Source of the DNA: Hyphomicrobiales bacterium
GTDB lineage: Bacteria; Pseudomonadota; Alphaproteobacteria; Rhizobiales; Rhizobiaceae
Length of the DNA: 64,000 nt
NCBI GenBank assembly: GCA_900468805.1
Contig: UEIF01000052.1
Span: 1 to 64,000 of the forward strand
Reading direction: 5' to 3'
Positions 6,293 through 17,323 of this stretch are shown one piece after another; within the stretch, counting starts at the first letter, position 1; each line of letters begins with the position of its first letter. A program made the translations under genes and the position numbers. The notes beneath the pieces are model-generated. The model saw only the letters and a list, made by a program, of their open reading frames with translations. It was not told the DNA's origin and ran no database searches.

Positions 6293-7084
6293 ATGATCCC
6301 AGCAATGATAAAGAACATCGTGGTCGATGCCGCGCGCGCCGTGGCTTTCCTGAGCCGCATTCCCATGCCGCCATGGCTCTTTGCCGGCTATGACGGCAAG
6401 CTTGGCCGGCTGGTCCGTGTCTTCCCCCTGGCCGGGCTCGTCATCGGCGCCCTGCCCGCTCTCGTCTTCTTCGTGATGCTGGCGTTTCGTACCGACCGTC
6501 TGATGGCGGCGCTCGTGGCGCTCGCCGTACAGACGATCCTGACCGGCGCGCTGCACGAGGACGGGCTTGCCGATACTGCGGACGGGATAGGCGGCGGCAA
6601 ATCCCGCGACCAGAGCCTTATTATCATGAAGGACAGCCGCATCGGCAGCTACGGCGCGATCGCCCTCATCCTTTCCTTCGCGCTGCGGGCTTCGGCCCTT
6701 GCAGCGATTGCCCGTGAAGCATCGCCCCTTGCTACTGCACTTGCCATTCCTGCCGTCGCGGCACTGAGCCGCGGCGCCATCGCCTGGCACTGGCAGCGCC
6801 TTCCCGCCGCAAAGCCGGATGGGTTGGCCGCCTCCGCCGGAAGCCCAGCGGAAGTCACCATGCAGATCGCCCTGGTGACGGCAGGCTTTATCACTGCCAT
6901 CCTCGTCTGGCCGGCACTCGGTCTGTTGCCGTTCGTCTCGGCCCTTCTCGCCGCCGGTCTCGCGACGCTCGCCTTCACCTGGTTCATTCGCCGCAGGCTT
7001 GGCGGCCACACCGGCGACACGCTCGGCGCTACCCAGCAGATTTGCGAGGTCGCAGCCTTCTGCGCTCTTGCCATGGCCCTCTGA
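6293..7084 (+). CDS. cobS: Adenosylcobinamide-GDP ribazoletransferase CobS/CobV
   Basis: A 263-residue polytopic membrane protein that joins adenosylcobinamide-GDP to alpha-ribazole in the last steps of cobalamin synthesis. It shows the family motifs FLSRIPMP near the N-terminus, [14 protein letters not shown] with acidic metal-binding residues, KDSRIGSYG, and several C-terminal membrane helices. In rhizobial B12 nomenclature the gene is also called cobV. It is divergent from cobT, which supplies its alpha-ribazole phosphate substrate. A second in-frame ATG lies at 6305. Confidence 0.95.
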
Positions 7085-7102
7085 AATTCCGATATATCGC
7101 CC

Positions 7103-7300
7103 ATGCGAACACCCTGCATCCGCGTATGCTCCCTGGATCCACTCACCGGTCTTTGTACCGGATGCGGCCGCACAACGGATGAGATCGCCGGCTGGATGCG
7201 CTTTTCCGACGAGGAGCGTGAAACCATCATGGAAGATCTGCCCTCCCGGCTCGCGGCACTCGCTCCCGAATCGACCAAAATGCTGGAGACCATCGGCTGA
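7103..7300 (+). CDS. DUF1289 domain small cysteine-rich protein
   Basis: A 65-residue protein with the DUF1289 pattern: CIRVCSLDPLTGLCTGCGRT near the N-terminus (four cysteines, a probable metal site), then the conserved TTDEIAGWMRFSDEER. Family function is unknown. It starts 18 bases after cobS, and its stop overlaps the start of the protease gene (TGATG), so cobS-DUF1289-protease probably form one transcription unit. Confidence 0.92.
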   Translation: MRTPCIRVCSLDPLTGLCTGCGRTTDEIAGWMRFSDEERETIMEDLPSRLAALAPESTKMLETIG

Positions 7301-7998
7301 TGCGCCTCATTCTCCTGCTTGCCGTCATCGGCATCGGCCTCGCCGTCCTGCTCTTCAATAGCGACCAGAGCCGCATCTTCGGACTGGCAAGCGACGATTT
7401 CGGCCGCTTCGTCTACCTGCTGCCGATCGCGCTGATGCTGGCGGCCGGCATCTGGGGCAGCCGCCAGAATATCGGCCAGACCCTGCGCCAGCTGATGATC
7501 TGGCTCGTCATCATCCTGGCGCTCGCTACCGCCTACCTCTACCGTCAGGATGCGATGGCGGTCGGCAACCGGCTGCTCGCCGGCCTCGTGCCGGGCCGCG
7601 CCGTGGTCGTCACGACGAGTGAAGGCGGAGAGGAAGTCATCGTCCACAAGATGCTGAACGGCCATTTCGAGGCCGAGGTCTCGGTGAACGGCCAGTCCGT
7701 GCCGATGCTGGTCGATACCGGCGCCAGCATGGTGGCGCTGTCGCATGCCGATGCGCTGCGCATCGGCATCGACCCGAAACAGCTCACCTATTCCATGACC
7801 GTGATGACTGCCAACGGTCGCGCCCGCGCCGCCCCTGTTACCCTCGATCAGGTCGCAATCGGCCCGATCGTGCGCAGCAATGTCGCCGCGTCCGTTGCCG
7901 AAGACGGCAGGCTCGACCAGAGCCTGCTCGGCATGAGTTTTCTGGAAACGCTAGGCTCCCTGCAGATGCAGACGGATGAGCTGAGGATGCGGGATTAG
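7300..7998 (+). CDS. Retropepsin-like aspartic protease, TIGR02281 family, membrane-anchored
   Basis: A 232-residue protein. Residues 1-18, about 32-50 and about 63-82 are hydrophobic segments that place the C-terminal domain outside the cytoplasm. The catalytic Asp lies in MLVDTGASMVALSH near residue 145, the DTGAS form of single-domain clan AA proteases, and TVMTANGRARAAPVTLDQV follows as in the family. One catalytic Asp per chain implies a dimeric active site. Substrates are unknown. It is translationally coupled to the DUF1289 gene. Confidence 0.9.
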   Translation: MRLILLLAVIGIGLAVLLFNSDQSRIFGLASDDFGRFVYLLPIALMLAAGIWGSRQNIGQTLRQLMIWLVIILALATAYLYRQDAMAVGNRLLAGLVPGRAVVVTTSEGGEEVIVHKMLNGHFEAEVSVNGQSVPMLVDTGASMVALSHADALRIGIDPKQLTYSMTVMTANGRARAAPVTLDQVAIGPIVRSNVAASVAEDGRLDQSLLGMSFLETLGSLQMQTDELRMRD

Positions 7999-8027
7999 GG
8001 TATTCCGCAGCCCGGTTTTCGTCTGCG

Positions 8028-8252
8028 TCAGTCAGGTTCTTTGCAGGCTGCCTCGCGGGCTACTTGATCCCAAATATATGAGCCCGAAGTCTCGTCCGCG
8101 CACCGATCAATATGGCCATTCGCCGCGAACCCGCTATAGATGATCAAACCCAGCGCAACAAATAGCAGGATCGCAAGAGCACTCACGGTCCGTCGTGGAG
8201 CTAGCCGCATCAAACCACGCTGTCCTGAATTGTTTGTCTCTAAGAACCTCAT
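8028..8252 (-). CDS. Small single-pass membrane protein, unknown
   Basis: About 74 residues from the ATG at 8252; other in-frame starts are at 8288 (86 residues, overlapping the upstream gene) and 8210 (60 residues). The middle has one clear hydrophobic helix (TVSALAILLFVALGLIIYSG). A short hydrophilic tail contains two cysteines and SGSYIWDQVAREAACKEPD. I recognise no family. It is probably co-transcribed with the gene ending at 8270. Start choice is uncertain because no strong ribosome-binding site is visible. Confidence 0.5.
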   Translation of the reverse strand: MRFLETNNSGQRGLMRLAPRRTVSALAILLFVALGLIIYSGFAANGHIDRCADETSGSYIWDQVAREAACKEPD

Positions 8253-8269
8253 CGTACAGTGATGGGGTC

Positions 8270-8569
8270 TCAATAGTTCCAGATGCACATGTAGATCATG
8301 GGCCGCCCGTCTCGGACAACGGCAATCCCTTCGTGTCCGTAGAGTGGGCCTCGCTTTTCGCTACGGCACAGCCATAGCTGATCACCGGGCCGCATCCCTC
8401 TTAATAGCGGAGCAAGGGTCGTCGCCGGATCATTGATGGCGTCGATAAGAGGTTGCGGGAGACCGCCGAGCTGGCCTCCGAACAGTTGGATCTGCCAATC
8501 ACGAAAGCCGTCCAGAGTGGTTTCTTCAATGAGTTCCAGTCCGGAAGGCTTATTGACTAATTTCGACAT
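8270..8569 (-). CDS. Hypothetical protein, 99 residues
   Basis: Begins MSKLVNKPSGLELIEE at 8569; a further in-frame ATG at 8605 would add 12 residues. The composition is that of a soluble globular protein, with tryptophan-containing segments DWQIQLFGGQLGGLPQPLI, RPGDQLWLC and a C-terminal MIYMCIWNY. I do not recognise the family. The frame is read in normal rhizobial codon usage and is followed closely by the small membrane protein gene. This supports a real two-gene unit, but with little functional information. Confidence 0.55.
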   Translation of the reverse strand: MSKLVNKPSGLELIEETTLDGFRDWQIQLFGGQLGGLPQPLIDAINDPATTLAPLLRGMRPGDQLWLCRSEKRGPLYGHEGIAVVRDGRPMIYMCIWNY

Positions 8570-8868
8570 CGTTGAACCGCGAGCGAATGGAAATGGCTGC
8601 CCCATTCCAAACGCAGCTTCTGCCTATGGAATCCGCATGGATGCAGCGGGCGGTCGAAATAATCACATCGTGAAACAAGTGTCGCGTGAAATGATCGTGT
8701 CTTTCATCACCTGCTCATCAAGCACCAGTGCCGAAACGCTCGAACCCAGGGCGGACTCGAAGATCTGATTGGCCTCGAAGCTGCGGACTGAAGGCCGCAC
8801 CTGCCTTGCAGCATCGACCATCCCGCCCTAGTCTCTCCGCATCCCCGCCAAAGAGGTCACATCCGCCA

Positions 8869-9714
8869 ATGTCCACCACCATCGCATTGTTCGGCGCCGG
8901 CGCCATGGGCAGCGCCGTTGGCCGCCGCCTCGCCGAGTCCGGCGCCAAGGTCATCACTTTTCTCGATGGACGCAGTGAAGCGACGATCGAACGCGCCCGC
9001 GCAATGGGCCTCGCCGCCGCCCCGCTGTCGGCATTCGCCGAGGCCGATATCATCCTCTCCATCGTTCCGCCCGCCGAAGCGCAGAAGGTCGCGGATCTCA
9101 TTGCTCCGGTGCTGCACGACAGCGGCAAGAAACCGCCCTTCGTCGACCTCAACGCCATCAGCCCGAAGACCATGGAAAAGCTGTCCGCAGGCCTCGCTTC
9201 CACGGGCGCGAAGGTAATCGACGGTTCGATCATTGGTGGGCCACCGGTTCCCGGCAAGGCCGGCCCGGTCGTCTGCCTCAGCGGCGATCTCGTCGGCGAG
9301 CCGGACCTACTTTCCCGCTTCGGCCTGAAGATCCGCACCGTGAAAGGCCCTGTTGGAGCCGCCTCTGCACTGAAGATGTGCTACGCCGGCATCAACAAGG
9401 GCATGACAGGCCTTTCCGCCGCCATGCTGCTGGCTGCTTCCCGCAACGGCGCCAGTGAGGCTCTGAAGGTGGAACTGGCTGAAAGCCACGCCGAGCATCT
9501 GATGCGCTTGCGCCAATCCATCCCGGACATGTTTCCGAAAGCCTATCGCTGGGTGGCGGAAATGGAAGAGATCTCCGAATTCCTGGGGCCTGCCGATCCC
9601 GCTGCCCTGATTTTCAAGGGCATGGCCGGCGTCTTCCAGACCATCGCGGACGACCGTATTGGCAGCCAGGTACTGATCGCTATTCTCGACCGGACGTTAG
9701 AAGACGGGCGCTAG
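8869..9714 (+). CDS. NAD(P)-binding beta-hydroxyacid dehydrogenase-like protein
   Basis: A 281-residue protein. The start at 8869 (MSTTIALFGAGAMGSAVGRR) puts the Rossmann GxGxxG at the N-terminus and follows an AAGAGG ribosome-binding site. The N-terminal domain (about 1-155) resembles 6-phosphogluconate/3-hydroxyisobutyrate dehydrogenases: FLDGRSEATIERA, VPPAEAQKVAD, FVDLNAISPKTME and DGSIIGGPPVPGKAG. The C-terminal helical domain (DUF1932-like) contains KMCYAGINKGMTGLSAAML in place of the canonical catalytic-lysine helix. Substrate unknown. Confidence 0.88.
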   Translation: MSTTIALFGAGAMGSAVGRRLAESGAKVITFLDGRSEATIERARAMGLAAAPLSAFAEADIILSIVPPAEAQKVADLIAPVLHDSGKKPPFVDLNAISPKTMEKLSAGLASTGAKVIDGSIIGGPPVPGKAGPVVCLSGDLVGEPDLLSRFGLKIRTVKGPVGAASALKMCYAGINKGMTGLSAAMLLAASRNGASEALKVELAESHAEHLMRLRQSIPDMFPKAYRWVAEMEEISEFLGPADPAALIFKGMAGVFQTIADDRIGSQVLIAILDRTLEDGR

Positions 9715-9719
9715 GCCCG

Positions 9720-10691
9720 TCACAAGCCCCGCACGAAATCGATAATTGCGCGGCTGACGATCTCCGGCTGCTCCTGCGGCAGCCAATGGCCTGCACCGGG
9801 TACGAACTGTGTCGTTCTCAGGCCAGGCGCCAGCGCCGGCATGGCATCGATAATCTGCCGCATTCCGGGGATCGCAAGGCCTGTATCGCGTTCGCCGGCC
9901 ATGAACAGCGCGGGAACTTCGACCTTCAGTCCTGTGAGAGCCTTCTGCAATTCCCAGTTTCGATCGAGGTTGCGATAATAGTTCAGCCCGCCGCGAAAGC
10001 CTGATGCCTTGAATGCAACGGCAAAGGCTTCGAGATCGGCCTGCGGCAGCCATGCGGGTAATGTTTCGACGTCTGGCAGATCGGCAAGCAGACCCGATGC
10101 GCGCGACACCATGCCGAACGGATTGGGCGTTCCGTCGCCCGGCAGTCGCGCACCCGCCTCGCCGCTGGCGGCACTATAGATCCTGCGCAGTGTGAGTTTC
10201 ACATCCCGCCCGAATTCGGCTTCCGCCACTCCCGGATGCTGGAAATAGAGTACATAGAGCAGGTGATCCGGCGTCGCAGGAAAGATCTTCGTCGGCGGCA
10301 CGGGCGGCTGGCCCATCATGGGCACGCTCATGGCGACAATGCCGCGAAACCGGTCCGGACGCACCAGCGCCGCCTGCCAGGCAACCGTCGCACCCCAGTC
10401 GTTGCCGACGATGATCGCCTTCTCCTTCCCAAGGGCATTAATAAGCGCCACCATGTCGGCCATGAGATCGAACATCGTATAGGCGCCTGTCTCTTCGGGG
10501 CTTTGCGTTCCGCCATAACCGCGCATATCAGGCGCCACTGCATGGAAGCCCGCCTCGGCCAATGCCGCTATCTGATGGCGCCAGGCATGCGACGTCTCCG
10601 GAAACCCATGGCAGAAGAGCACCAGCGGCCCCTCGCCGGCCTCAAGGATGCGCATCTTGATTGTTCCGGTTTCGATCATGCGCTGCTGCAT
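9720..10691 (-). CDS. Alpha/beta hydrolase, epoxide hydrolase-like
   Basis: A 323-residue protein starting MQQRMIETGTIKMRIL at 10691, with a GAGGAAG ribosome-binding site just upstream. It has the oxyanion motif HGFPETSHAW, the nucleophile elbow GNDWGATVAWQ with Asp as nucleophile (typical of epoxide hydrolases and dehalogenases rather than serine esterases), cap-domain tyrosines in NYYRNLDRN, an acidic residue in GERDTGL, and the catalytic His in GAGHWLPQEQP. It probably hydrolyses an epoxide or related substrate. It is divergent from an Rrf2 regulator that likely controls it. Confidence 0.9.
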   Translation of the reverse strand: MQQRMIETGTIKMRILEAGEGPLVLFCHGFPETSHAWRHQIAALAEAGFHAVAPDMRGYGGTQSPEETGAYTMFDLMADMVALINALGKEKAIIVGNDWGATVAWQAALVRPDRFRGIVAMSVPMMGQPPVPPTKIFPATPDHLLYVLYFQHPGVAEAEFGRDVKLTLRRIYSAASGEAGARLPGDGTPNPFGMVSRASGLLADLPDVETLPAWLPQADLEAFAVAFKASGFRGGLNYYRNLDRNWELQKALTGLKVEVPALFMAGERDTGLAIPGMRQIIDAMPALAPGLRTTQFVPGAGHWLPQEQPEIVSRAIIDFVRGL

Positions 10692-10814
10692 CTCTGCTTC
10701 CTCGAAAAATAACCACACGGCCGAAAAGACCGCGTCCAAACGATTTGAATCTTTAATTCCGTATCTTTTTACGTTACGGAAACATACTTGGCAGGGGCCG
10801 AAAGTCAATAGACT

Positions 10815-10831
10815 GTAACACTATTTGTTAC
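10815..10831. promoter_or_regulatory. Candidate Rrf2-family operator palindrome
   Basis: GTAACA-CTATT-TGTTAC is a perfect 6-base inverted repeat with a 5-base spacer. It lies 17 bases upstream of the Rrf2-type gene start and in the intergenic region shared with the divergent hydrolase. A related half-site (CGTTACGG) lies about 40 bases to the left. Position and symmetry suit autoregulation plus control of the hydrolase. Binding is inferred. Confidence 0.55.
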
Positions 10832-10848
10832 GCTATAGAGAGACGCAG

Positions 10849-11286
10849 ATGCGACAAGACGGAAGACTGGCGCGGATGATCCACGTTCTCGTTCATATGG
10901 GATTGCTGGGCGGCAGGGAAACTTCTGAGCGCATCGCGCAAATGCTGAACACCAACCCTGTCGTCGTTCGCCGCACCATGGCGTCTCTGCGCCAGTACGG
11001 CATCGTCAAATCCGAGGGCGGCCGCGGCGGCGGCTGGTCGCTGACAAGGCCGCTCACGGAGATTACCATCCTGGATGTACAACGCGCCCTGCAAGGCGAA
11101 ACGATTCTCGACGCGCCGCTCTCCAACGACCACCCGTCCTGTCCTGTCGAGCGCGCCGCCAATGCCAAGCTGCAGCGCGCCTTTCAAAGCGCCGAGCAGA
11201 CGCTGGAGCGGGAATTCCAGAAGGTGACGCTGGCCGAGATCGGCGAGATCGCCATGGCTTCCGCCAAGGCCGGCAAGACCGGTTGA
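10849..11286 (+). CDS. Rrf2 family transcriptional regulator
   Basis: A 145-residue protein from the ATG at 10849 (AGAGAG upstream). The winged HTH is in the N-terminal 70 residues, with NPVVVRRTMASLRQYGIV as recognition region and SEGGRGGGWSLTRP as wing, the Rrf2 signature. Only one cysteine is present (HPSCPVERAAN), not the three-Cys cluster of IscR/NsrR, so an Fe-S sensor of that type is unlikely. The last 53 bases or so of conserved 3' sequence recur at 12993-13045, beyond an AT-rich insert. Confidence 0.92.
   Translation: MRQDGRLARMIHVLVHMGLLGGRETSERIAQMLNTNPVVVRRTMASLRQYGIVKSEGGRGGGWSLTRPLTEITILDVQRALQGETILDAPLSNDHPSCPVERAANAKLQRAFQSAEQTLEREFQKVTLAEIGEIAMASAKAGKTG
11216..11268 (+). repeat. 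Left copy of 53-bp direct repeat flanking an insert
   Basis: These 53 bases, the 3' coding end of the Rrf2 gene, are identical to 12993-13045. Similarity extends leftward at lower identity to about 11147 (partner 12927). The right copy is a broken 3' gene end. Together they bracket an AT-rich segment of about 1.6 kb. This resembles an attachment-site duplication at the 3' end of a protein gene. Confidence 0.85.
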
Positions 11287-11542
11287 CGATCGTGGGGCAA
11301 AGACGCCTCATCGAACTGCCGCTGCCCTGCAGCCACACTGATGGCGTGATTAAGCGCAGAACCTATTAAATGTTGGGCGGCCACTTCCCCTATATAATAT
11401 TGTCAATATTCACTCGCTCTTCATCAGAAGAATGTGCTAAGGTATAGAAATGAAATCATAGTTTTCTCTCTATAATGAAGCTGGTTTTTAAATTCATCTT
11501 AAGTTATTTTACATCCATAAATTAAATCATCGAGGAAATCAC

Positions 11543-11869
11543 ATGGAAAACCTCGTAGGAATTCTCGGGGCCATTAGAAATTTTCGCGCACCACTGTCAA
11601 TAACAGCCCTATGCTTATTAATTTTCTATCTTATCGTGCGGCAGATCCTTGAACTTGGAGTATTTTCACAGATTTCACAGGTTGGAACCAGTGATTTTCT
11701 GAATAAACTCCTAACCTACATCTTCTGGCTTTCCATTGCGGGGCTCGTATTCGGATTAATCCTCTACGCCTTGCCGTACATTATTCCCAAGCGATTAGCT
11801 GGCAGAGTTGAAATAGTGGATGTGTCGATTAACGAGGAACTTGGGACGTCTGGTCATAAAGAGAAGTAG
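11543..11869 (+). CDS. Small two-helix membrane protein of the AT-rich insert, unknown
   Basis: A 108-residue protein with ATG at 11543 preceded by GAGGAAAT. Two hydrophobic helices are visible, about residues 18-36 (SITALCLLIFYLIVRQIL) and about 55-82 (LLTYIFWLSIAGLVFGLILY), followed by a polar tail ending in charged residues. No family recognised. Codon usage is markedly AT-richer than the flanks. It is 12 bases upstream of the 343-residue gene, so the two look like an operon. Its small size and paired partner recall membrane components of compact accessory systems, but that is inference. Confidence 0.7.
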   Translation: MENLVGILGAIRNFRAPLSITALCLLIFYLIVRQILELGVFSQISQVGTSDFLNKLLTYIFWLSIAGLVFGLILYALPYIIPKRLAGRVEIVDVSINEELGTSGHKEK

Positions 11870-11881
11870 GGAGAAGCTCTG

Positions 11882-12913
11882 ATGTCATCATCGATCATCC
11901 TCGATCAGACCTCCGAAGATCGCTGGCGACATCGCCACCCATTTCCAGTACTCGATTTTAAGTTTCGAAATACGGGATTGGGGACCAGCTTCCTAACTAG
12001 CTTCCAAGTGAATATTCTTAACGCTGAAATCGATATCGAACCTGATCTCGACTTTACTTGGTCGATAGGCGGTCCGGAACGAACAGATAACTATGGCACA
12101 CCAGACCGCGAGTTTGGTTCGTCACTGAGGATTTCCGTAAATAATTATGGTTGGGGCTCCGCCCACTCCTTAAAATTCAACTCCGTAGACAAACTTGAGG
12201 AACTGTTTGACAAACCCTCTTTTGAAGGAGGGGAACTTGTTGGCGTTAAGTCTGAACTGATCCGCGAATACTCAATATCGGATCTGAACAAGGAGAAATT
12301 CAAAGCGCGCGCAGCCAGCGGGCAAGCTTCAGATGCGAAGAGTTTGCGTGCAAACCATCTGGGGTGGCCTCGAGGAATAAATTCTTTCCAAGCGATCTTC
12401 GACAAAGGCGTTCCCTATCTGGTAATTGAAGAATTTAAGTTCACTTGGGAATGCACGGATGATTTGAGACGAAAATATCGGGGAAAAGAGAAACTGACCA
12501 ACCGCCAAATGGGCCACTGGGGAGGTGATGTCGTTTTAACGGAGAAAGGCTTTTTTTTCTTATCCCACGGGCCGGTAGCCGCTTATGCAGTGCAGCCGGG
12601 ACCGACGACTTGCGTGATGATTGATCCAGATCTCGGTGCGCACGTCCGCTCTTATCGACTTTCAAGAGGTGTGAAGGGCGGAGAAATCGAAAGATTTCAG
12701 ATACTTATCGGCGCATCAATGTCATGCGCACTCGACTTGAAGTTTGGCTTCGTCGCAGATGGTTCAAAAAGGTTAATTACCTCTGATCCGATGTCGCTCT
12801 ATATCGCGAACAGCCGATACAATGCGTACCATGATGAATATCGCGACGGTCAGGTAATCCTTGATGAAGTAACAGACCAAATGGAACGCCAAGCAAGAGC
12901 GGCGGGTCGCTAG
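11882..12913 (+). CDS. 343-residue protein of the AT-rich insert, unknown
   Basis: Start ATG at 11882 after GGGAGAAGCT. The predicted protein is soluble, with no signal peptide or membrane helix. The N-terminal half looks beta-rich (FPVLDFKFRNTG, TSFQVNILNAEIDIEPDLDF). The middle contains a basic stretch (DLRRKYRGKEKLTNRQ) and VVLTEKGFFFLSHGP. The C-terminus is acidic and polar (YRDGQVILDEVTDQMERQ). I see no Walker, nuclease, protease or methylase motif and do not recognise the family. It is paired with the membrane protein 12 bases upstream. The pair is the only coding content between the duplicated rrf2 3' ends. Confidence 0.72.
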   Translation: MSSSIILDQTSEDRWRHRHPFPVLDFKFRNTGLGTSFLTSFQVNILNAEIDIEPDLDFTWSIGGPERTDNYGTPDREFGSSLRISVNNYGWGSAHSLKFNSVDKLEELFDKPSFEGGELVGVKSELIREYSISDLNKEKFKARAASGQASDAKSLRANHLGWPRGINSFQAIFDKGVPYLVIEEFKFTWECTDDLRRKYRGKEKLTNRQMGHWGGDVVLTEKGFFFLSHGPVAAYAVQPGPTTCVMIDPDLGAHVRSYRLSRGVKGGEIERFQILIGASMSCALDLKFGFVADGSKRLITSDPMSLYIANSRYNAYHDEYRDGQVILDEVTDQMERQARAAGR

Positions 12914-12926
12914 ATTAGTGGTTACC

Positions 12927-13063
12927 GAGCGCGCCGCCGACTCCAGGTTGCAGCTAGTCTTTCAAAGCACCGAGGAGGTGCTGAGTGCGAACTCCAGAAG
13001 GTGACGCTGGCCGAGATCGGCGAGATCGCCATGGCTTCCGCCAAGCCCGGCAAGACAAGCTGA
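12927..13063 (+). pseudogene. 3' remnant of an Rrf2-type gene (right-hand duplicate)
   Basis: The segment translates as ERAADSRLQLVFQSTEE in one frame and, after a one-base deletion near 12985, as ELQKVTLAEIGEIAMASAKP plus GKTS and a stop at 13061-13063. This parallels the C-terminus of the intact Rrf2 protein encoded at 10849-11286. The last part is identical over 53 bases, while the left part is clearly diverged, so this is not a fresh tandem duplication of the whole end. It marks the right boundary of the insert. Confidence 0.85.
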
Positions 13064-13220
13064 CGCCAATCAGTTGCTTGCTGGCGGCGCGTGAATCTGC
13101 CAACTTTCAGCAAAACAACAAGACCACAAAGAACAAGAAGAAACTCCTAGTCTGGTGGCACCACATCCCGATCGCCTTCCCCGAAGGCCTCAGCATGTCC
13201 GGTGCGACAGGAGTTTTACG

Positions 13221-13658
13221 ATGACTGCATTCTGGCCCTTGTTCGTCGGCGGCGTGGCCCCCGCCATTCTCTGGGGCATCACCGCCATCTTCCAGAAACA
13301 GAGTGCGGTATCGGGCGCCGGCTCCTCCGCCTATCTCATCGCCTTCGGCCTGATGCTTGCGGTAGCGGGCGGGATCTCCGCCCTGATCTGGCGCCCCGCG
13401 CCCTGGACGGCGGAAGGCATCGGCTTTGCCGCCATCGCCGGCCTCTGTTTCGCCCTCGGCACCGGCCTCATCAGCTTCGCACTCTTCGCCTACGGCGTGC
13501 CGGTCTCTAAACTCGCGCCGATCTGGAGCTGCAACGTGCTGGTGACGCTGACCGTCGGCGCGGTGTTTCTGGGAGAGGCTGCTGAGGTCGATCTCATGAA
13601 ACTCTCTGCCGGCCCCCTGCTCATCATCGGCGGCGCCATCCTTGTCAGCAACGCCTGA
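13221..13658 (+). CDS. EamA/DMT-superfamily small transporter
   Basis: A 145-residue protein with a single EamA unit, about five hydrophobic helices. The start at 13221 follows CAGGAG. Typical features are APAILWGITAIFQKQSA at the N-terminus and, at the end, PIWSCNVLVTLTVGAVFLGE, which corresponds to the conserved second half of an EamA repeat. Half-size members usually work as dimers, exporting small metabolites or cations. Substrate unknown. It begins after the right end of the insert and is convergent with the Rap1a-like gene. Confidence 0.85.
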   Translation: MTAFWPLFVGGVAPAILWGITAIFQKQSAVSGAGSSAYLIAFGLMLAVAGGISALIWRPAPWTAEGIGFAAIAGLCFALGTGLISFALFAYGVPVSKLAPIWSCNVLVTLTVGAVFLGEAAEVDLMKLSAGPLLIIGGAILVSNA

Positions 13659-13666
13659 CGCCAATC

Positions 13667-14056
13667 TTATCGGCAGCCATAGCTGCGGGTAACGACTGTC
13701 ATTACCAGATCATCGCCCTCCGCGCTGCGAACACCTGGATTTTCCTGCAGGAAGTGGCAAAGCATATCGCCGATCACGATGGGTGTCGTGCCCGGCGGCA
13801 GGCAGATATTCCACCCGACCGAATGGCCGAAACGGGTTATAGTGACCATCGCCTGCGGATCGGGGGCCGCATCGGTGAATGCTCGCCGCGCAAGAAACTC
13901 GTCCCTGTTCCACTTGTCGAGCCAGCCAGAAACATAGCCGGTGACGAACTGCCGCGAACCGCCACAATCCGAAAAGAGAAGATCGCCGCTGGCATATTCC
14001 ATCGGCGCCTTGGCCGAAACAGTCGCCAACAGGGTTGCAATGAGAATGCCCGGCAT
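13667..14056 (-). CDS. Rap1a/Tai-like secreted protein
   Basis: A 129-residue protein with an N-terminal signal peptide (about 15-17 residues, cleavage near VSAKA). The body has SGDLLFSDCGG, VTGYVSGWLD, WNICLPPGTTPIVIGDML and a C-terminal SYGC. This GD-C, GY-G, CLPPG pattern is that of the Rap1a/Tai immunity-like domain, found both in type VI immunity proteins and in many non-immunity periplasmic proteins. No type VI effector lies nearby, so an immunity role is not supported. The function is unknown. Confidence 0.75.
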   Translation of the reverse strand: MPGILIATLLATVSAKAPMEYASGDLLFSDCGGSRQFVTGYVSGWLDKWNRDEFLARRAFTDAAPDPQAMVTITRFGHSVGWNICLPPGTTPIVIGDMLCHFLQENPGVRSAEGDDLVMTVVTRSYGCR

Positions 14057-14204
14057 CTGATCCCTCGCCTGCGTATCGCTGCCGGAAACTTCAGCCCGAA
14101 CATGTCGGAATTAAGCTGGAACTATTGCCGATGTGTGACGTCAGAAAAGATGGTAAATGCCCGAACCGGAAAGGAAATTTCTCCTTAACCGAGGTAAATA
14201 GCCT

Positions 14205-14825
14205 TCAATGCACCTTGCCGTGGAGCAGCACGTCAAAGACCATGTGCTTGAATGTCTCGAGCGGCGCCCCGCTGCGCTCGGCGCGCATGCGCAGAAGCGC
14301 GCCTTCCCAGCTGTTCAGAATGAAATCGGCGAGTGTCCCGGCCGGCAGCTCGCTGGTTAGTGTGCCGTCTCTCTGCGCTTCGGCCAGACAGGCTGCAATC
14401 ACCTCGCTCCAGCGGCTGAAATGCGCTGCCACATGCTGGCGGATCAACTCGCTATGGTCGACCGTTTCGGCACTGAAATTGCCGAGCACGCAGCCCTGCG
14501 TATGGCCCCTCAAGGTAAAGGATGCGACGCGATCGTCGAAATAGGCCTTGAGGCGGCGAAGCGGCGGCTTTTCATGATCGGCGAGAAACCCGATGAGCCG
14601 GGCAAGCGCCTGCTCGGAATAGCGATCGGAAACCTCTGCTCCGAAAGCCTCCTTGCTGTCGAAGTAATTGTAGAAGGAGCCCTTCGGAACCTTGATGTCA
14701 TCGACGATCTTCTGGATGCCGGTGGCGGCAAACCCATTGGCATGGATCTCCTTCAGACCCGCCTCGATGAGTTTCTCCCGCATTTGCATATTCGGCTTGG
14801 GGCCGCGGCGGGCCGGCTTTTCCAT
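14205..14825 (-). CDS. TetR/AcrR family regulator
   Basis: A 206-residue protein. The N-terminal TetR DNA-binding domain (about 12-60) reads GFAATGIQKIVDDIKVPKGS and FYNYFDSKEAFGAEV, characteristic of the family. The C-terminal ligand domain shows GCVLGNFSAE and SWEGALLRMRAERSG, matching the AcuR/YcdC-like C-terminal type. It is divergent from the metallo-hydrolase gene, and a GACCGGTC palindrome lies between them, so it probably represses that gene and itself. Ligand unknown, possibly a reactive electrophile as for AcuR/NemR relatives. Confidence 0.92.
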   Translation of the reverse strand: MEKPARRGPKPNMQMREKLIEAGLKEIHANGFAATGIQKIVDDIKVPKGSFYNYFDSKEAFGAEVSDRYSEQALARLIGFLADHEKPPLRRLKAYFDDRVASFTLRGHTQGCVLGNFSAETVDHSELIRQHVAAHFSRWSEVIAACLAEAQRDGTLTSELPAGTLADFILNSWEGALLRMRAERSGAPLETFKHMVFDVLLHGKVH

Positions 14826-14846
14826 GTTCGTTTCCTCTTGAATAAC

Positions 14847-14870
14847 TAAATACGACCGGTCATATATTTA
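14847..14870. promoter_or_regulatory. Candidate TetR operator
   Basis: A palindrome centred on GACCGGTC (14854-14861) with AT-rich near-symmetric flanks (TAAATAC left, ATATTTA right). It lies 22 bases upstream of the TetR gene start and about 80 bases upstream of the divergent hydrolase gene. ACCGGT-centred sites are typical for TetR proteins of the AcuR/NemR type. Regulation is inferred. Confidence 0.65.
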
Positions 14871-14947
14871 TTGCCTGGTCACAAAAATCAAGGCCTTTCC
14901 CGCTCTCCCAGCCGCCTTAACTCCAACTATTCCAAGGAATTGCCACA

Positions 14948-15805
14948 ATGACCTCAAGCCCCACTCCCAGCATGCGCTATGATGTCCTGACAATCCGCCG
15001 CCCCGGCCTCAGCCGTGATGTGCCGGCTGGCGATCCATCCCTTCAGTGGGTAGCCAATTCCGCCACGCTGATCTCGGGCGAACGCGATGCCGTGCTCGTC
15101 GATACCTTCCTGACCGAACCGCAGACAAAGACCCTCGCCGACTGGGTGGAAGCGAGCGGCAAGCGGCTGAAAGCGATCTACATCACCCATGGTCACGGCG
15201 ACCACTTCTTCGGCATCGGTGCCCTGCTGAAACGGTTCCCCGATGCGAAAGCCTATGCCATATCGGATGTGGTGGAGGCGATGCGCCGCCAGAGCGCGCC
15301 CGAAATGCTCGACGGCTTCTGGCGAAAGCTCTTCCCCGGCGAAATCGCCGAGAACATGGCTGTAGCCGATGTCCTTGAAGCACCGGACCTGGATCTCGAA
15401 GGCCACAAGCTGATCCCGATCGATGCCGGCCATACCGACATGTCGCACTCGACCGCCCTCCACGTTCCCTCGATCGGGCTGATCGTCGGTGGAGACGTCG
15501 TTTATAACGGCATCCACTGCTACCTCGGCGAAACCACCCGGGAGAGCCGGCTGCACTGGATCGAAACGCTGGAGCGGCTCAAGGAGCTGAAGCCGAAGGC
15601 CGTCGTCGCCGGCCACAAGATCCCAGAAAATGACGACGATCCCGATATCATCGACGAAACCCAGCAATACCTGCGCGATTTCAACAGGCTTGAGCTGGAA
15701 ACGACGACAGCGAGAGAACTGTTCGACGCCATGCTGGCGCTCCATCCAAACCGTGCCAATCCCGGCTCGCTCTGGGGCGCTGCCAAAGTCGCCAAGGGCG
15801 CCTGA
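14948..15805 (+). CDS. MBL-fold metallo-hydrolase
   Basis: A 285-residue protein. The metal-binding motif THGHGDHFFG (HxHxDH) is near residue 81. Further ligands are probably in DAGHTDMSHST and VVGGDVVYN, and a final His in VVAGHKIPEN. This is the metallo-beta-lactamase superfamily hydrolase pattern with two zinc sites. The N-terminus (TIRRPGLSRDVPAGDPSLQW) resembles the group related to quorum-quenching or detoxifying enzymes. Substrate unknown. It is divergent from, and probably controlled by, the adjacent TetR regulator. Confidence 0.9.
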   Translation: MTSSPTPSMRYDVLTIRRPGLSRDVPAGDPSLQWVANSATLISGERDAVLVDTFLTEPQTKTLADWVEASGKRLKAIYITHGHGDHFFGIGALLKRFPDAKAYAISDVVEAMRRQSAPEMLDGFWRKLFPGEIAENMAVADVLEAPDLDLEGHKLIPIDAGHTDMSHSTALHVPSIGLIVGGDVVYNGIHCYLGETTRESRLHWIETLERLKELKPKAVVAGHKIPENDDDPDIIDETQQYLRDFNRLELETTTARELFDAMLALHPNRANPGSLWGAAKVAKGA

Positions 15806-15859
15806 CCTTCACGCAATCAACACCAGGCAGGCTGCCGCGCCTCTGCTCGGCACGCCGCA

Positions 15860-16312
15860 TCAGAGCGTGACGAGATCGGCGTGCCCGAACCCCTTGGAAT
15901 AATCGAGCACCGAAATCACCTTTGGCACGACGCGAAAGATGCAGATCTGATCCCGCGTCGGCATGGCGATCGCCAGACGCTCCTGAACCGGATATTTCGC
16001 CGGCATCAGTTGGAGTACCCCGTCGGCCTCGTCAGGGTCTTCCACCTTCTCGGCATGCGCGGCCATCGACAAGCCGGTGATCTGCATCAGCTGGCCGGCA
16101 TCCGGGTTGATGGTCAGCGACACCCTGTTGTCCCGCGCCAGATTGGCGGCCTTCTGGCTGTCCGGGCCGCAGAGGAAATAGAGCGTCAGCCCGTCATTGA
16201 CGTAGCCGACCGTCGTCGCTTGCGGCCAGCCGTCTGGCCGGAGCGTGGCAACGCTCATGATCCGCTGCCCATCCAGTATCGCCTGGATCGTCTTCCTGAT
16301 CGGGTCATCCAT
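15860..16312 (-). CDS. Pyridoxamine 5'-phosphate oxidase-family flavin-binding protein
   Basis: A 150-residue split-barrel protein from the ATG at 16312 (GAGCGAGCT upstream). Motifs are MSVATLRPDGWPQATTVGYV, LYFLCGPDSQKAANLARDNR and VSLTINPD, typical of PNPOx-like FMN or F420/haem-binding proteins that are not true PdxH. It probably acts as a small oxidoreductase in the cytoplasm. A perfect TTGAT-N4-ATCAA box lies 57-70 bases upstream of the start, pointing to low-oxygen control. Confidence 0.87.
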   Translation of the reverse strand: MDDPIRKTIQAILDGQRIMSVATLRPDGWPQATTVGYVNDGLTLYFLCGPDSQKAANLARDNRVSLTINPDAGQLMQITGLSMAAHAEKVEDPDEADGVLQLMPAKYPVQERLAIAMPTRDQICIFRVVPKVISVLDYSKGFGHADLVTL

Positions 16313-16368
16313 AGCTCGCTCCGTTCGGTTTGATAGCTGAAGCATGTGCGGCTACAGGGAGTTCCGCA

Positions 16369-16382
16369 TTGATCCGCATCAA
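16369..16382. promoter_or_regulatory. FNR/FixK-type box (anaerobox)
   Basis: TTGATCCGCATCAA is an exact match to the FNR/FixK/FnrN consensus TTGAT-N4-ATCAA. It lies between the PNPOx-family gene (start 16312, minus) and the HTH gene (start 16460, plus). Distance fits activation of the leftward gene (centre about 63 bases from its ATG), but the box is symmetric and could affect both. Confidence 0.8.
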
Positions 16383-16418
16383 GGCGAATATGATCTGGAT
16401 TATTCCGAAATATTCCTT

Positions 16419-16452
16419 ATTATTCTAAAAGAAGATTACCATAGAGAATAAT
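16419..16452. promoter_or_regulatory. Inverted repeat upstream of the HTH gene
   Basis: ATTATTCT (16419-16426) and AGAATAAT (16445-16452) are perfect 8-base inverted arms with an 18-base AT-rich spacer, ending seven bases before the ATG of the excisionase-type HTH gene. Further TATTCC half-like sequences lie just to the left. This fits an autoregulatory operator; a leader hairpin is the alternative. Confidence 0.5.
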
Positions 16453-16459
16453 ACGGATC

Positions 16460-16882
16460 ATGTCGGAAGAGTTCTACACTGCTGAACAGGCGGCCGAACG
16501 CCTGAAACTGCACCCGAAGACCGTGCTGCGGCTCATCCGCGAAGAGCGTTTGCGCGCCACGCGCATCGGCAAATCCTACCGCATTCTGCGCTCCGACCTC
16601 GAAGCCTTTGCCGGTGTCAGCAACAGCACCCCGGCCCCGCAGGCCGAGGTCTATGTCACCAGCGTGGTCGAGGTGCCCGATCTCTCCGCCGAAATGTCGA
16701 ACCGCCTGACGGTGCTGATACAGGCCATGCTGATCTCGCGGCATCGCCGTCCGCACACCATGCAGTTCAACGCCGCCTATGACGCGGAACGGCGGCTCCA
16801 GAAATTCATCCTCATCGGCACGCCGTCGGATACGGCGGAACTGTTGAACAGCCTGGACGCTTATCTGAAGGCGCTCAGTTAA
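16460..16882 (+). CDS. Helix-turn-helix (excisionase/MerR-like fold) DNA-binding protein
   Basis: A 140-residue protein. Residues about 5-55 form an HTH_17-type domain (YTAEQAAERLKLHPKTVLRL, RIGKSYRILRSDLEAF). The C-terminal 80 residues are an uncharacterised domain (VYVTSVVEVPDLSAEMSNRL, MQFNAAYDAERRLQKFILIG) that may sense a ligand or dimerise. It is followed 19 bases later by a DUF4180 gene, a common pairing. Although the HTH type occurs in phage excisionases, no phage gene is near, and the protein is longer than an Xis. A chromosomal regulator is more likely. Confidence 0.85.
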   Translation: MSEEFYTAEQAAERLKLHPKTVLRLIREERLRATRIGKSYRILRSDLEAFAGVSNSTPAPQAEVYVTSVVEVPDLSAEMSNRLTVLIQAMLISRHRRPHTMQFNAAYDAERRLQKFILIGTPSDTAELLNSLDAYLKALS

Positions 16883-16901
16883 AGACCAGAAAGGACATTC
16901 C

Positions 16902-17282
16902 GTGAGCAATGACATCAGGCTCTCGCACGGCTTTCGTGTGCTGCTCCGCAATCCCGATGGCAGGCCGTTATCGGCTGAAAGCGGCATCAACGATCTGATC
17001 GGCCACGCGCTCGGCGAAGCCGTCGATTGGGTGGTGCTGCCGGTCGCTCGCCTTCCCGAGGGTTTCCTGACGCTCCGCTCGGGCATTGCAGGTGCTGCGA
17101 TCCAGAAATTCGTCAACTACCGCGTTCGCATCGCCATCATCGGCGGGATCGATTCGGAGCTTGCCGGCAGCAACGCGCTGCAAAGCTTCATTCTTGAAGC
17201 CAATCGCGGCACCACCTGCTGGTTTCTCGATACGATGGAAGAGTTCGAGGCCAGGCTTTCGGCCTTCAGCACTCCGGCCTAA
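16902..17282 (+). CDS. DUF4180 domain protein
   Basis: A 126-residue protein matching the DUF4180 layout: VDWVVLPVARLPEGFLTLRS, AGAAIQKFVNYRVRIAIIGG, and the tail SFILEANRGTTCWFLDTMEE. The fold resembles small regulatory or STAS-like alpha/beta proteins; no enzymatic motif is visible. It is co-directional with the HTH gene just upstream and probably translated from the same message. Biological role unknown. Confidence 0.85.
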   Translation: MSNDIRLSHGFRVLLRNPDGRPLSAESGINDLIGHALGEAVDWVVLPVARLPEGFLTLRSGIAGAAIQKFVNYRVRIAIIGGIDSELAGSNALQSFILEANRGTTCWFLDTMEEFEARLSAFSTPA

Positions 17283-17323
17283 CCCACCGATTCCTCTCGA
17301 TAATGCCGGATCCCGCAACAGCC

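Follow-up and report, generated by a model that had tools for sequence, protein, structure and literature searches.

The rrf2 locus and its insert

The window, which is the whole stretch of DNA that was analysed (64 kb of a Hyphomicrobiales genome), contains an rrf2 gene, after which come an AT-rich block of 1,637 bp with two open reading frames and then a frameshifted 140-bp copy of the rrf2 3' end; all of these features are given on the + strand. The gene itself (copy A, 10849..11286, with ATG at 10849, TGA at 11286 and a C-terminus reading AKAGKTG-stop) had been called intact in a first, sequence-only reading, and this is borne out by an open frame whose product matches Pfam Rrf2 with E = 3.3e-29. 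The product has 145 aa, a length equal to that of the orthologue in the sister genome G431, to which the gene is 97% identical over 440/442 nt, and the target gene is undisrupted. The likeness of copy A both to the second copy (copy B) and to G431 stops 2 bp past the rrf2 stop codon, and the flanks agree with G431 up to 11288 and then again from 12989. Taken with the empty sites of relatives described below, this makes the locus an insertion at the 3' end of rrf2, as the sequence-only reading proposed.

The insert opens with a left non-coding arm of 254 bp (11289..11542), delimited by alignment with 12 relatives. The small-protein gene and the 343-residue protein gene reported earlier are both open reading frames, one of 108 aa with two hydrophobic stretches judged by eye (11543..11869) and one of 343 aa (11882..12913), which begins 12 bp after the end of the first; the second rrf2 tail begins 12 bp after the stop of the 343-aa frame. 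The two frames likely form one operon, and their 12-bp spacing suggests that the proteins may be made and act together. The block has a foreign composition: its G+C content is 45.9% over 1,637 bp against 60.4% for the window (rounded, the 46% and 60% that bear out the AT-rich segment of the first description), and the 12 lowest-G+C among 624 sliding windows of 1,637 bp all overlap it. Third-position G+C is 0.46 and 0.48 in the two frames, and 0.74-0.84 in the four genes of the host that were measured, so that the frames look as expected of recent arrivals. The absence of an integrase from the insert had also been noted, and no recombinase was recognised within the block.

Empty sites were sought in a genus collection of 148 genomes (the own genome and 147 others, one per species), with up to four candidates scored per genome in the orthologue search. 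A close rrf2 orthologue is present in 12/147 of the other genomes, with 86-97% identity and 481-740 bits, the next best candidate scoring 184 bits. When the 10-11 kb around each orthologue were compared (the contig of G428 starts 1.5 kb before rrf2), all 12 relatives had a single rrf2 tail and no block within these stretches. In 11 of the 12 a single place is matched both by the native tail and by copy B; in G014, copy B has no match at E <= 1e-8 and a short match falls at the same place as the native tail. It had been predicted that the empty site would show one rrf2 copy joined directly to the downstream gene, and this is what is found after the tail in seven relatives (G431, G440, G428, G422, G430, G033 and G027), and with a break in G412, while in G383, G411, G417 and G014 the tail runs directly into other parts of the region. 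The name EamA given to that downstream gene did not hold, the 145-aa product of 13221-13658 having no Pfam match at E <= 1. A tandem duplication of rrf2 with an older block between the copies is not favoured, given the single tail in 12/12 orthologue-bearing relatives.

The second rrf2 tail and its identical core

A broken second rrf2 3' end had been placed at 12927-13063, and the homology is confirmed at 12926-13065, which aligns with 11148-11288 at 86% identity overall. The agreement is uneven, with 79% between 11148-11205 and 12926-12983, and 92% between 11206-11288 and 12983-13065. Within it lies the 53-bp direct-repeat core, an exact run at 11216..11268 (copy A) and 12993..13045 (copy B) that was recovered precisely as first described, together with the divergence and one-base deletion to its left. 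This run is the sole exact direct repeat of at least 20 bp in the window, the runner-up having 19 bp. Between the copies, the left 67 nt (12926..12992 in copy B) carry 15 substitutions and one deletion, the 53 nt of the core none, and the 18 nt to the right four differences. At least 53 consecutive identical columns arose in 139/200,000 permutations of 19 differences over 137 columns, and the difference rate outside the core (19/84) gives a probability of 1.3e-6 for no change in 53 positions. An exact run of this length, flanked by homologous sequence that has diverged, can be interpreted as having the look of a recombination tract.

Comparison with relatives separates the two copies. In the left 67 nt copy A differs from G431 at 1 position and copy B at 16, and against each of the 12 relatives copy B shows 16-21 differences in this part and copy A 1-9. 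Copy A is taken as native because of this single difference from G431 and because its flanks fit that genome. From the core rightward copy B agrees with G431, with 217/230 identical nt over 12989-13218 (core included), and 13046..13065 is identified by its G431 identity as the displaced end of the native rrf2 tail, now non-coding and joined to the native spacer. Copy B is thus, by alignment, two-layered, with a heavily decayed left part and a native sequence from 12993 rightward. To the right of the core the four differences between the copies are clustered in the final 18 of 71 nt (P = 0.003 under an even spread); this counts against the two-step history set out below, and the one explanation offered is that the tail of copy A derives from a donor.

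By codon position the differences of the decayed left part from copy A are 8/4/3, and the pooled differences of copy A from the 12 relatives are 12/14/41; third positions therefore account for 3/15 against 41/67 (Fisher P = 0.005, the relatives not being independent). The sparing of third positions indicates that the left part of copy B drifted as non-coding DNA, and it has the look of a relic, no longer coding, of an rrf2 tail from within this clade, a relic that may be read as an old integration scar. A working foreign rrf2 gene as the source of copy B is not favoured, in view of the spared third positions, the deletion and the greater closeness of all 12 relatives to copy A. Judged by eye, 20 more distant rrf2 genes had tails no closer to copy B (that of L097 being incomplete), and among plasmids copy B had short matches only, none over 80% of the query.

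The two genes of the block

Neither block protein reached the curated cut-offs of Pfam and NCBIfam, the 108-aa protein matching DUF4064 with E=0.0084 and 16.8 bits, under the 32.1-bit cut-off. Among the anti-phage defence models of PADLOC neither frame had a match at E <= 5, and PHROGs returned two weak matches, both for the 108-aa protein, with a best E of 0.058. The 343-aa protein was found in the own genome only among 297 order genomes and 398 phylum genomes, and in three other genomes among 289 class genomes (E 0.004-0.07). Searched against those three loci alone, it gave E values between 3e-7 and 1e-5 with search spaces of 1.7-3.3 kb, with about 28% identity across 53-95 columns; one match lies within an unrelated-looking frame and one is antisense to a longer frame, and given this placement the three were taken as chance. 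No match to the same protein was obtained among plasmids, phages, viral contigs and genome contigs (the scans of the latter two detect close relatives only) or among PDB sequences, and AlphaFold2 on the single sequence gave a mean pLDDT of 30.6. With the 108-aa protein, 16/198 of the other genomes of the order gave matches at E <= 0.1, the strongest with E 7e-4 and 31% over 65 residues; they were taken for chance ones between hydrophobic stretches, and further searches with this protein gave nothing. By these searches, both proteins are orphans, with no credible relative in the collections covered.

At the nucleotide level the block was detected in 2/148 genus genomes, namely the own genome and G382, where a marginal 33-bp match (E = 8.5e-4) was obtained. 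The latter, of 33-35 bp in the left arm of the block, sits in a frame resembling an alpha/beta hydrolase by eye, and may be due to chance or to a fragment of a gene within the left arm. The left arm had no match among plasmids; a 41-bp match of the block in phages (E = 0.01) was taken as chance. In Rfam two matches were returned, both far under their cut-offs, and a promoter and terminator scan of 11200-13250 gave nothing beyond shuffle level.

History of the insertion and variability around it

Integrative elements are described as using the 3' ends of protein genes with repeats of 8-60 bp, and CIMEs as elements that have lost their integration and transfer genes (both in the excerpted text of PMC5704250); for Sinorhizobium meliloti islands in tRNA genes, repeats of 12-98 bp are given in an excerpt of PMC11476347. 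Entry of the block as a tyrosine-recombinase element that integrated site-specifically at the rrf2 3' end, and is now cis-mobilizable or decayed, is possible but well short of probable: the att core would lie within the 53-bp tract, the element would have supplied the replacement end, and the recombinase would have been lost or would act from elsewhere. The intact rrf2 end fits such an entry, as do the use of a protein gene's 3' end and a 53-bp repeat within the range quoted from the PMC5704250 excerpt; ten tyrosine-recombinase matches (E <= 0.001) occur elsewhere in the genome, although 0/10 lie on C21, the contig of the block. However, the rrf2 homology reaches 67 bp left of the core and is heavily decayed, the other matches to the rrf2 tail in the own genome are short (best 30 bp, E = 2.7e-4, among the matches listed), the second tail is absent from the stretches of the 12 relatives, and an exact dyad scan of 11206-11290 gave no arms of at least 6 at gaps 0-11. 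A simple att site would not need 67 bp of extra homology left of its core. Like CIMEs and decayed elements as excerpted from PMC5704250, the locus has a direct repeat that includes the end of the target gene, an intact gene, foreign cargo and no recognised recombinase; unlike them, it has a block of just 1.6 kb with two frames and decayed homology left of the core, and comparison of the block's DNA with the 147 other genus genomes turned up no integrase-bearing relative. Of the earlier proposal that an element integrated and brought its own replacement end, the insertion at the 3' end stands, with 12/12 empty sites; entry through an integrase, with a replacement end brought along, is possible. 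Integron gene cassettes have an attC site, with its R and R'' boxes paired, at the 3' end of their ORF, and the locus is similar in having compact frames followed after 12 bp by a 140-bp repeat-like segment; this segment, however, is rrf2 coding homology and not attC, and the + strand of 11286-13070 has GTTRRRY twice and RYYYAAC once, in no case at a junction, on which grounds a cassette of this type was rejected.

Other explanations fare less well. It is unlikely that the block predates the divergence from G431, disappeared there and elsewhere via the repeats, and had its 53 bp equalised later by gene conversion; this would explain the decayed left part of copy B without a donor, and clean loss should be easy through direct repeats, but absence or loss is then required in 12/12 orthologue-bearing relatives, and the foreign composition has not been ameliorated. 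Still more doubtful, and very improbable, is a recombinase-free cassette that would use a gene tail as its docking sequence, in which homologous exchange would move the block and refresh the core, the decaying outer tail recording its age. That contigs were joined through a shared repeat is likewise very improbable: the genome is a draft in 88 contigs, but the block lies well inside a contig of 81.5 kb, a chance join at a short repeat does not explain a 140-bp homology with diverged parts, and the segment first singled out matches the own genome once, at itself.

The best explanation, held at about even confidence, is a history in two steps. The insertion, the vacant sites in relatives, the whole rrf2 gene and the two layers of copy B are shown directly; the earlier residence of the block, the point of crossover and RecA-type exchange as the agent of the second step are inferred. 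In the first step the block would have lodged as foreign DNA at an rrf2 3' end in some relative of the clade, leaving a second, non-coding rrf2 end to its right that then decayed for long. Block-bearing DNA would later have reached the present lineage and undergone exchange with its own rrf2, by a crossover within the 53-bp tract or at its border, with the outcome of a whole gene on the left and a native tail displaced to the right; the left part of copy B would be the old scar, already decayed on arrival with the block. The time required can be gauged from four-fold-site divergence against G431, which is 7% in the hydrolase gene, 8% in rrf2 and 13% in the downstream gene; at 7-13%, one branch gives 2-4 changes per 66 nt, not 15 (P <= 2e-5). 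Within a few kb the divergence is higher (24% at 13670-14056, 29% at 7300-7995), and at 29% the 15 changes are borderline (P = 0.05), so that the scar could be younger than proposed.

As the last step of the two-step history, RecA-type exchange with a block-carrying donor is favoured because ordinary homology suffices and because it explains an identical tract between diverged stretches; it fits at least as well as entry by an integrase, and between RecA exchange and an integrase acting in trans the present data fit either. The arrangement resembles RecA-type merodiploid formation, in which incoming DNA is anchored in identity and the recipient is partly duplicated (excerpt of PMC3784515), and differs from it in that the duplications in that excerpt are mostly large and in tandem and the species transformable, whereas here the donor is not seen. 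No block-carrying donor was found among the 147 other genus genomes, and the two-step history therefore rests on one genome. No publication title on insertion at rrf2 ends appeared among the matches listed, and the term 'Rrf2' is absent from PMC11476347 and PMC8627217. The kind of structure is already known; the two-layered scar adds a history to it, and the orphan cargo is of some interest. A single locus here displays an empty site, a fresh core and a decayed outer scar, so that the sequence itself allows an argument about the order of events, and the two orphan genes are candidates for uncharacterised cargo.

The surroundings vary as well. The genes right of rrf2 (13064-17300) come and go among the 12 relatives, and from gene content the 3' side of rrf2 appears to be a zone of gene turnover, variable even apart from the insertion. 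Four-fold-site divergence from G431 (locus L073) is patchy: to the left it is 15-29% in three genes at 6293-7995 and 16% at 8866-9711, and to the right 13-24% in four genes at 13221-15802, 7% at 15863-16879 and 17% at 16902-17279. This pattern over 6293-17279 hints at past homologous exchange in patches. Plasmid records matching the region belong to Rhizobium in 81/124 cases and to Sinorhizobium or Ensifer in 38/124, which suggests a genome of Rhizobium type.

Upstream of the 145-aa gene that follows the rrf2 tail lies a block of some 48 nt (at about 13114-13162) that has hardly changed across 27 distinct sequences, which include the window (the others being L003, L004, L006-L023, L073, L074 and L078-L081); they were drawn from 34 sources chosen for a matching region, with some genomes present twice. 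It had no Rfam match at E <= 1, and can be read as a peptide containing LLVWWH or, in another frame, as a stop-ended Arg-rich peptide; a role as leader or regulatory element is possible. The last third is interrupted in 4/27 sequences (L019, L022, L023 and L074), where a palindromic stretch around AAATCGGAATCGATTTA, perhaps a small repeated element, breaks the block after AAACTCCT.
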